Positions 1,901-29,512 of a stretch of 30,959 nucleotides of DNA are shown in pieces. This stretch comes from a virus, in IMG/VR virus record IMGVR_UViG_3300049448_000046, positions 1 through 30,959 of that record. The stretch is one strand, 5' to 3'. How positions within the stretch are numbered: the stretch's first letter is position 1; the number at the start of each line of letters is the position of its first letter. Under the pieces are notes generated by a model, which saw only the letters and a program-made list of their open reading frames with translations, made no database searches and was not told the origin of the DNA. The position numbers were made by a program, and so were the translations under genes.

Positions 1901-4529
<2,629 letters not shown>

Positions 4530-16181: not shown

Positions 16182-16396
16182 GTCGTCTCCGCTTTCCGCG
16201 GTCGTCCGCGCTTCTTCGGTTCATCAGGCGCCGGCGGTTCCAGGATCAACTGGTAGGCGTCCGGCGCAGGCCAGTCTGGTGAGGGGGCGTCCAGGCCACC
16301 GGCCTGCACCGCCGCCTCGTAGTCAGACACAGTCTGCACGATGAGAAAGACCCCGCCACGCCAGTAGACGTGACGGGGAAACGTCAGATCCGACAC
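16178..16396 (-). CDS. Small protein with basic AT-hook-like tail (72 aa)
   Basis: The N-terminal half is hydrophobic/aromatic ([18 protein letters not shown], a beta pair), then an acidic Pro-rich stretch, then a C-terminal [10 protein letters not shown] motif that resembles an AT-hook. It lies between the coat-proximal gene and the short collagen gene with one-base overlaps. A role touching packaged DNA or a head protein is possible. No family recognised. Confidence 0.7.
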
Positions 16397-27494: not shown

Positions 27495-27723
27495 GGATTA
27501 GCGCCCCGTTGAGAATCACCACGCGATCCGTAGAAATAGGTTCCGTTAAATCAGGATCAGCTATCAGCGGCGACGGATGAAGCGCATCTAATGGGATCAT
27601 GTCGCCGTCCACACCACGCGTCAGCATGAATATCTGCAGCAAAATGTGAATCCGCTCACCGGTAACGGGATTCCTCGGATGTAGCCCGCGAATCTGCACT
27701 TCATCGAACTTCTGCAGCTTCAT
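27487..27723 (-). CDS. Small hypothetical protein (78 aa)
   Basis: It reads MKLQKFDEVQIRGLHPRNPV, then TGERIHILLQIFMLTRG, then VDGDMIPLDALHPSPLIADP. Predicted beta strands surround a short helix. There is no Cys pair, membrane segment or catalytic motif. It overlaps neighbours by 4 and 8 bases, which supports translation. No family recognised. Confidence 0.72.
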   Translation of the reverse strand: MKLQKFDEVQIRGLHPRNPVTGERIHILLQIFMLTRGVDGDMIPLDALHPSPLIADPDLTEPISTDRVVILNGALIHA

Positions 27724-28067
27724 GCCCGGGCCTCATCCTGCTTCTTGCAGCAAACCCATGTCGCAGAGCACTTTACGTCATGCGGACAGGGCGTGATGTA
27801 GTGCGTCCGGACCGTTGGCGTCGGTAGATATTGCAGCGGGGCCACGAGAAACAGCCCGATGGGATGCTTGCGCTTCACGACCAGATAATTATCCGTGTCG
27901 AAGTAGCCGGATAAGGCGTCCAGTATCATCTGCTGCGTCACGCCGTTGGTCCGCAGATGCGTCCCGAGCTTCCCAAAATCTAAGGGGGACAGGATCAGGG
28001 CGCAGGGCACGCCATACTTCTCTGACCAGAGTGCCCGATACGTATCAAAGACTTGACTCTCAGCCAC
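27720..28067 (-). CDS. Hypothetical protein resembling C-terminal part of phage replication proteins (115 aa)
   Basis: The start is GTG 28065-28067. The segments YRALWSEKYGVPCALILSPL, DFGKLGTHLRTNGVTQQMIL and DALSGYFDTDNYLVVKRKHP then GLFL follow a pattern that I associate with C-terminal parts of phage replication or helicase-loading proteins (LWxxxYG, then helix, then FF/YF, then HPxGLF). The Cys-rich end (TPCPHDVKCSATWVCCKKQD) may bind metal. A complete initiator is not visible, so this is a weak assignment. Confidence 0.7.
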   Translation of the reverse strand: MAESQVFDTYRALWSEKYGVPCALILSPLDFGKLGTHLRTNGVTQQMILDALSGYFDTDNYLVVKRKHPIGLFLVAPLQYLPTPTVRTHYITPCPHDVKCSATWVCCKKQDEARA

Positions 28068-28565: not shown

Positions 28566-28594
28566 AGTATTACCTAAGCGTTTAGGTATGTCAA
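28566..28594 (-). promoter_or_regulatory. Strong minus-strand promoter
   Basis: On the minus strand TTGACA (28589-28594) is a perfect -35 box, followed after 17 bases by AATACT (28566-28571), four of six matches to TATAAT. Predicted start near 28559. It would drive the 28517-to-left gene chain. Confidence 0.7.
28572..28587. promoter_or_regulatory. Palindromic operator inside promoter spacer
   Basis: ACCTAA-GCGT-TTAGGT has perfect 6-base arms and occupies almost the whole spacer between the -35 and -10 boxes. This is where a phage repressor usually binds. The repressor is not encoded in the window. Confidence 0.6.
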
Positions 28595-28635: not shown

Positions 28636-28738
28636 CCAGACACCTTTTTCTCTCATCGCCCTATTGGGTCTGAGGAGAAAGCCTGCTCTACAATGCTTCA
28701 CACAACAGCATGAGAGGACGGGGCGCGGAGGTGTCTGG
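28636..28738. repeat. 10-bp inverted repeat with 83-base gap
   Basis: CCAGACACCT at 28636-28645 pairs with AGGTGTCTGG at 28729-28738. Both lie in the gene-free stretch. It could be a paired protein-binding site or chance. Confidence 0.35.
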
Positions 28739-28879
28739 TCAGCGCACTTCCCCGTGCGTTTTCAGGTCAAGCCTGGGTCTTGCACGACGCCACACGTCAG
28801 CGGCTCTCTCGAGCGGCCCCGGTTCAATGGCTGCCGGTTGACACGTCACTACACCGTCCGTAGTGGTCAGCGCGGGAAG

Positions 28880-28909
28880 TTGCGGAACTGCTTGTGGGTT
28901 TGCTAGACT
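28880..28909 (+). promoter_or_regulatory. Plus-strand extended -10 promoter for small RNA
   Basis: TTGCGG (28880-28885), 18-base spacer, then TGCTAGACT (extended -10, TAGACT at 28904-28909). Start near 28916. A terminator follows about 40-75 bases downstream, so the unit is very short. Confidence 0.55.
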
Positions 28910-28915
28910 GGGCCA

Positions 28916-28991
28916 ACGCTTGGCCGGCATCTGAACCATGCCCGACAAGTAACGCTCCAAAGGATTCCCGCCTTTCGGAGCGTTTTCTTTT
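28916..28991 (+). ncRNA. Putative small non-coding RNA (about 75 nt)
   Basis: The predicted transcript runs from the promoter above to the intrinsic terminator and contains no open frame of note. It can form a GGCAT/ATGCC stem (28926-28930 with 28938-28942) and a long terminator stem. It is on the strand opposite to all genes. Target and function unknown. Confidence 0.5.
28951..28991 (+). terminator. Intrinsic terminator, plus strand
   Basis: Stem AACGCTCC (28951-28958) with GGAGCGTT (28977-28984) is extended by AAAGG with CCTTT around a 7-base loop and a one-base bulge, then a TTTTCTTTT tract (28983-28991). It lacks a T tract in the minus direction. Confidence 0.8.
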
Positions 28992-29003: not shown

Positions 29004-29219
29004 CTACGCTTTCCTGAAGGCGAAGTCAACATCGAGGAAGTAATCGCCGCACCAATCACGGCCAGACACGTCAGGCCATGCCTTCGTGAATCGCGTCGTC
29101 AGCGGCGGTTGCGCCTTGAAGATCATTGGCGCATGTCGCCGGCAGTGACCCTGACCATCCTCTGGGGTTTTCGAGAGACGACCATCCCAGAATTTGCATG
29201 AAAAACATGTTTCAGCCAT
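29004..29219 (-). CDS. Small Cys-rich protein (71 aa)
   Basis: The pattern ETCFSCKFWDGRLSKTPEDG, QGHCRRHAPMIF and GRDWCGDYFLD places four cysteines in the layout CxxC...CRRxxP...WCG that recurs in small phage and bacterial proteins and suggests a metal-binding site. Function of that type is not known. An upstream AGAGG/GGGAG ribosome site is present. It is the last gene before the 486-base gene-free stretch. Confidence 0.8.
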   Translation of the reverse strand: MAETCFSCKFWDGRLSKTPEDGQGHCRRHAPMIFKAQPPLTTRFTKAWPDVSGRDWCGDYFLDVDFAFRKA

Positions 29220-29241
29220 TTACGCCTCTGCTCCCACGGAG

Positions 29242-29439
29242 TCAAGCCACAAGATGTAGCGCAGCCCAGAGCGCCACGACCAGGATCGCGCCAGAGATGA
29301 GACGGTCTAATCGCTCGCTGCCCGTATCCACGGGAAACTTCCCCGGCACATACGGGAACCGTTTCCCGCAGCGCAGACAAAACTCCCCAATCTCATTCGT
29401 GAAGTAGTAACGATGCCCGAGGATCCAACACGTCAACAT
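29242..29439 (-). CDS. Small membrane protein with Cys motif (65 aa)
   Basis: A perfect AAGGAGG ribosome site lies 6 bases before the ATG at 29437-29439, partly inside a 10-base palindrome (29448-29457). The N-terminal part MLTCWILGHRYYFTNEIGEF then CLRCGKRFPYV resembles small DUF1660-type phage zinc-ribbon proteins (Cys, Gly-His, then CxxC-Gly-Lys). The C-terminal ISGAILVVALWAALHLVA is one membrane helix. A membrane anchored metal-binding peptide is suggested. Function unknown. Confidence 0.8.
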   Translation of the reverse strand: MLTCWILGHRYYFTNEIGEFCLRCGKRFPYVPGKFPVDTGSERLDRLISGAILVVALWAALHLVA

Positions 29440-29512
29440 GAAACCTCCTTAGCTAAGTAAGGTGCCGGTAGTCTCCACGCGACCGGCGGCACGTCCAAGC
29501 GCAGGAACAGCG

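Follow-up and report, generated by a model that had tools for sequence, protein, structure and literature searches.

A short unit at 28880-28991 on the plus strand of the window (the whole 30,959-nt stretch of an IMG/VR virus record analysed here) very probably represents a real family of small phage RNAs that has so far been neither described nor named, because shuffled sequences lack such a unit, relatives keep it, its stems covary, it is the plus strand that folds, and Rfam holds no match for it. We are highly confident that this interval specifies a real structured RNA. The best explanation as a whole, a phage small RNA that most likely acts as a cis-encoded antisense RNA, is one that we hold in even balance. 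For phages known solely from metagenomes, annotated small RNAs are rare, and support from covariation is unusual evidence for so short an RNA. Exchange of the RNA together with one neighbouring gene, which encodes a 115-aa protein, moreover ties an antisense RNA to an early phage module in a way that can be tested.

Anatomy of the unit

The window carries portal, large terminase, methyltransferase, HNH and NinB-like genes, and a survey of its open reading frames bore out the preliminary description in placing all likely genes on the minus strand. The extended -10 promoter which that description had placed on the plus strand can be read directly as a sigma70-like TTGCGG-18-TAGACT (28880-28909), in which the -35-like TTGCGG (28880-28885) is followed, after an 18-nt spacer, by the hexamer (28904-28909) of the extended -10 element TTGCTAGACT (28900-28909). 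Between the -10 and the terminator stem lie 41 nt, in line with the approximately 40 bases originally given, and the terminator (P3, 28951-28991) has the bulged stem and T tract ascribed to it: a 13-bp stem with one bulged C (AACGCTCC-AAAGG / CCTTT-C-GGAGCGTT, 28951-28984), a C-rich loop AUUCCCG and the T tract TTTTCTTTT (28983-28991). With its ends placed from the promoter and the T tract, the predicted RNA runs from 28915/16 to ~28991 on the plus strand and measures ~76-77 nt, close to the ~75 nt first proposed. Upstream of the terminator it is predicted to form a 31-nt hairpin (P2, 28919-28949; CUUG-GCC-GGCAU-CUGAACC-AUGCC-CGA-CAAG), the loop of which holds a YUNR motif (CUGA). The computed fold of the RNA reaches -28.4 kcal/mol (z = -3.6), a value equalled by 0 of 200 shuffles.

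Two further inverted repeats flank these elements. A palindrome, GGCCAA-CGC-TTGGCC (28911-28925), covers the predicted start site, and relatives have an inverted repeat at the same place with a spacer of 3-5 nt; a role as a DNA operator is disfavoured because the spacer is not constant. Upstream of the promoter, the repeat CACTAC-ACCGTCC-GTAGTG (28847-28866) reads CGCTAC-ACAGTCC-GTAGCG in G008, with one compensatory change.

A simple promoter/terminator scanner listed neither end of the unit, since the weak -35 keeps the score of TTGCGG with TAGACT below its cut-off and its stem rule does not allow for the bulge. A scan designed for this layout, which asked for a promoter and, within the next 25-115 nt, a hairpin at least as stable as -14 kcal/mol together with TTTT, recovered the unit in the window, gave one instance in each of three relatives, and found this promoter-plus-terminator pattern 0 times in 40 Markov-shuffled windows. 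Its one other match in the window, at 28664, is a possible second plus-strand unit (28664-28764; TTGGGT-19-TACAAT, then a hairpin of -15.5 kcal/mol and TTTT), for which L092 keeps the hairpin and the -10 and has a changed -35, with no covariation. The only other strong intergenic terminator seen in the window is a minus-strand one (16351-16378, CCCCGTCACG...CGTGGCGGGG), which is kept in G006 and G008.

Conservation among related phages

Relatives were gathered by protein searches in IMG/VR, and in eight other records promoter, hairpin and terminator occupy the corresponding position. Two of these (3300047471_000080 and 3300047311_000096), referred to hereafter as type A, carry the same 71-aa gene beside the unit as the window does; their RNA body is 67% identical to the window's, and the 80 nt downstream are 95% identical. 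The remaining six (type B; G001, G009, G011, G012, G013 and G014) have a different sequence laid out on the same plan at the same place. A sequence-plus-structure model of type B gives the window a score of only 10 bits, so that what links the two types is their place and anatomy and not their sequence. L092, a type B record, holds the type A upstream segment CAGCGCGGGAAG, which bridges types A and B. Promoters in the relatives read TTGCCT-17-TAAACT, TTGCGA-17-TAGAAT, TTGAAT-17-TAGAAT and TTGACG-17-TAGAAT, and the spacing is 17-18 nt in every variant. Independent lineages are few in this collection, about 5.

Beyond these records, blastn against named phages and plasmids returned no match for the locus, and comparison of the window's genes with named phages revealed no relatives of the region; the terminase is ~47% identical to those of Pelagibacter HTVC010P-like and Rhodoferax P26218 phages. 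Neither the type B motif nor the 115-aa protein was matched in bacterial genomes. Exact-pattern scans with the terminator arm, the promoter and the type A motif gave matches that were mostly due to chance, and were set aside. No family of Rfam 15 scored above its gathering threshold; RF00489 (ctRNA_p42d) gave a weak match confined to the terminator hairpin (18.3 bits, E 0.15), far below its gathering score of 50, and the window RNA is a non-member of that family.

Evidence for a folded plus-strand RNA

A possible phage small RNA had been proposed for this locus from the letters alone, with covariation of the stem in related phages as a suggested check. The check was strongly positive, and covariation together with recurrence at the same place supports the proposal. 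Across 7 distinct sequences, the helices of which were aligned by hand in an alignment fitted to the structure, which favours the result, 117 of 119 stem cells are paired and 13 of 17 pairs have changed on both sides; the paired-cell count was matched in 0 of 5000 shuffles. Within type B alone, in a MAFFT alignment with the structure given, 7 of the 11 terminator pairs show double changes, and sliding the partner destroys the signal. The helices contain 21 G-U pairs, and mismatches are absent on the plus strand; on the minus strand each of these G-U pairs would become A.C, so it is the plus-strand RNA that folds. The T tract and the promoter also lie on the plus strand in every variant.

We consider it extremely unlikely that the conservation is due to chance or a coding artefact, meaning a bidirectional hairpin or a gene on the minus strand. 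The earlier statement that the product has no useful reading frame holds for the plus strand; on the minus strand, however, a frame without stops spans the locus in 8 of the 8 records examined (chance of 3-8% per record), as a coding artefact would have it. Against such an artefact, substitutions in these 8 records show no excess at third codon positions and frameshifting indels fall inside the unit; we therefore do not read the minus frame as a conserved protein, and rejected a minus-strand gene at the locus. The G-U asymmetry and the presence of all T tracts on the plus strand argue against chance and artefact alike, and no shuffle matched the observed values in either the covariation test or the unit scan.

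Neighbouring genes and exchange of the locus

Downstream of the unit, on the opposite strand, lies the gene for the 115-aa protein (27720-28067, minus strand), which is present in 9/9 records with the RNA and in 0/4 with the locus exchanged. The latter (G002, G004, G006 and G007; four records, three of them distinct) are those in which the corresponding interval is readable; G005, G010, G015 and G016, which stop too near the locus for a verdict, were left out of the co-occurrence count. In the four exchanged records the whole interval, including the 115-aa neighbour, is replaced by another gene, the best family matches of which are to replication initiation (E 0.12 for G002) and a DnaD-like loader; as E values span 0.12-0.22, the replication label is only a lead. 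The 115-aa protein itself matched nothing in Pfam, PHROGs or NCBIfam, and its structure model is of low confidence (pLDDT 49); presumably it resembles the C-terminal parts of phage replication proteins, which we likewise take as a lead only. Between this gene and the unit, the minus strand carries a strong promoter (28566-28594, TTGACA-17-AATACT), the boxes of which enclose a palindromic operator, TACCTAAACGCTTAGGTA; the same 37 nt are found in G006.

Relatives that lose the promoter and stem while keeping the flanking genes had been named in the preliminary description as the observation that would speak against a small RNA. G003 (L078) shows this in part: a GIY-YIG-like endonuclease gene (~3788-4500 of the record) replaces the promoter and the first hairpin, with the flanks and the 115-aa gene kept, but a terminator is kept as well. 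In G002, G004, G006 and G007 the RNA is gone, but so is the 115-aa neighbour.

That the RNA is a by-product, and that opposite-strand transcription itself matters, either by interference or by opening a replication origin, appears decidedly unlikely. Such a role would agree with retention of both promoter and terminator, and with the gene of weak replication resemblance found at the RNA's place in some relatives, yet it would make the P2 hairpin needless, and the pairing of P2 is kept by compensatory changes; features of an origin were not noticed either.

On its other side, the unit is faced by the converging 71-aa gene (29004-29219, minus strand), which contains a CxxC motif, is 99% identical in both type A relatives and is absent at this place in type B. 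The location between early and middle gene blocks given in the preliminary description is plausible; its accompanying remark, that regulatory RNAs often act between such blocks, is not counted here as evidence.

Possible minus-strand transcription across the unit

A conserved element reading TTGACT-17-TAAATG (29217-29245, minus strand) is a putative promoter. It overlaps a 40-nt stretch (29220-29259) that is conserved before different genes in ten records and reads as a minus-strand promoter. In the type B version (TTGACT-17-TAAMTT) the -10 lies 15-16 nt beyond the 3' end of the RNA, so that, from the position of the element, a transcript starting there would have the complement of the entire RNA at its 5' end. 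In the window the element is weaker and the 71-aa gene lies between it and the RNA; with its TAAATG, which overlaps the start codon of 29004-29219, it makes a poor promoter, and G008 lacks the element before the 71-aa gene. Since no good terminator was recognised on the minus strand from the upstream genes to the unit, transcripts of that strand are expected to run through it and so to include its exact complement. Farther upstream on that side, a 31-nt hairpin sequence at 29462-29492, GTGCCGGTAGTCTCCACGCGACCGGCGGCAC, is identical in nine records, in which it lies upstream of different genes, and occurs twice in G008; from its sequence it looks like a conserved regulatory or module-boundary element.

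A possible antisense mechanism

We suggest the following mechanism, in which transcription of either strand, the pairing, its outcome and its target are what we infer. An RNA of ~76 nt, consisting of the P2 hairpin with a U-turn loop and the intrinsic terminator P3, would be transcribed opposite all the genes from a sigma70-type promoter of its own. Minus-strand transcription from the 29004-29439 side would cross the unit, and the resulting transcript would hold a perfect complement of the RNA, situated in an untranslated stretch before the operon that lies downstream (from the 115-aa gene on). Contact between loops at P2 would initiate pairing, and the outcome could be RNase cleavage or a block to expression of that operon. 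This antisense mechanism, whether like that of phage lambda OOP RNA or like that of a plasmid countertranscript, is a tentative reading of sequence to which we give somewhat less than an even chance.

Cis antisense control is favoured on account of the geometry, the U-turn motif in the P2 loop and the want of a shared trans target in the phages. The geometry fits an RNA complementary to an untranslated leader, most clearly in type B, where minus transcription is predicted. YUNR occurs in the P2 loop in 5/5 distinct loops (random expectation ~4e-4) and in no P3 loop, and U-turns are found in the recognition loops of antisense systems in which loops make the first contact (PMC4485353). A search of phage translation starts gave no trans target shared among the phages and no shared match of at least 10 nt.

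The P2 stem is invariant in type B even as the flanks and the promoter spacers vary, a pattern suggestive of sequence-specific binding to a partner other than the RNA's own complement; for this reason two other readings were kept. One, which we regard as rather unlikely, is action in trans, in which the small RNA would pair with mRNAs of the host, or distant phage ones, either through its C-rich terminator loop (UUCCCG / UCUCCCA) against a Shine-Dalgarno sequence or through the P2 loop. Presence of the C-rich loop in every variant would be consistent with it, as would the type B P2 stem, invariant with its flanking nucleotides while the flanks diverge; the phage translation starts lack a shared target, though, and no seed is common to types A and B. 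The other, a protein-binding RNA or decoy in which a phage or host protein recognises the P2 stem and its internal mismatches, is quite unlikely. Here the outer stem and internal loop of P2, with GCC/CGA in type A and a C.A mismatch in type B, are invariant within each type, but the motif sequence is completely different between the types and no known binding motif was identified.

Comparison with known antisense RNAs

Antisense control in cis, the reading we prefer, has well-described counterparts. Phage lambda OOP RNA is 77 nt long, is made from its own promoter pO, ends at the intrinsic terminator tO and lies opposite early genes (PMC12197685; PMC5869508). The window RNA resembles it in size and layout, being of ~77 nt, with its own promoter and intrinsic terminator, and opposite phage genes. 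The overlap of OOP with the 3' end of cII amounts to 52 bases (PMC5869508), whereas the window RNA is predicted to end ~12 nt short of its neighbour's stop codon (28991 versus 29004-29006), so that an overlap would call for read-through; as it does not overlap the coding end of the neighbouring gene, we do not file it as an OOP RNA. Nor was a cII-like gene recognised in the window, and no sequence relation to OOP was seen. P22 sar RNA is another small antisense RNA of a phage, with 68/69 nt (PMC12197685); its target is ant, and no ant-like gene was recognised in the window.

Plasmid countertranscripts such as pMV158 RNAII offer a further likeness, in that they are short, have a terminator hairpin and are antisense to the untranslated region of an operon, as we propose for the RNA described here. 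Many plasmid countertranscript RNAs use U-turn loops (PMC4485353). RNAII of pMV158 is itself without U-turns and is 48 nt long, in contrast to ~76 nt and a YUNR-bearing P2 loop in the window RNA, and where countertranscripts of replication genes control an initiator, the 115-aa protein of the window matches no family. It is conceivable, if unlikely, that types A and B form a two-type family of phage countertranscript RNAs attached to an exchangeable replication or early-control module, in which diversified loops and terminators set phage-specific cross-inhibition. Such a family would recall the incompatibility RNAs of plasmids, though in phages that only metagenomes have revealed.
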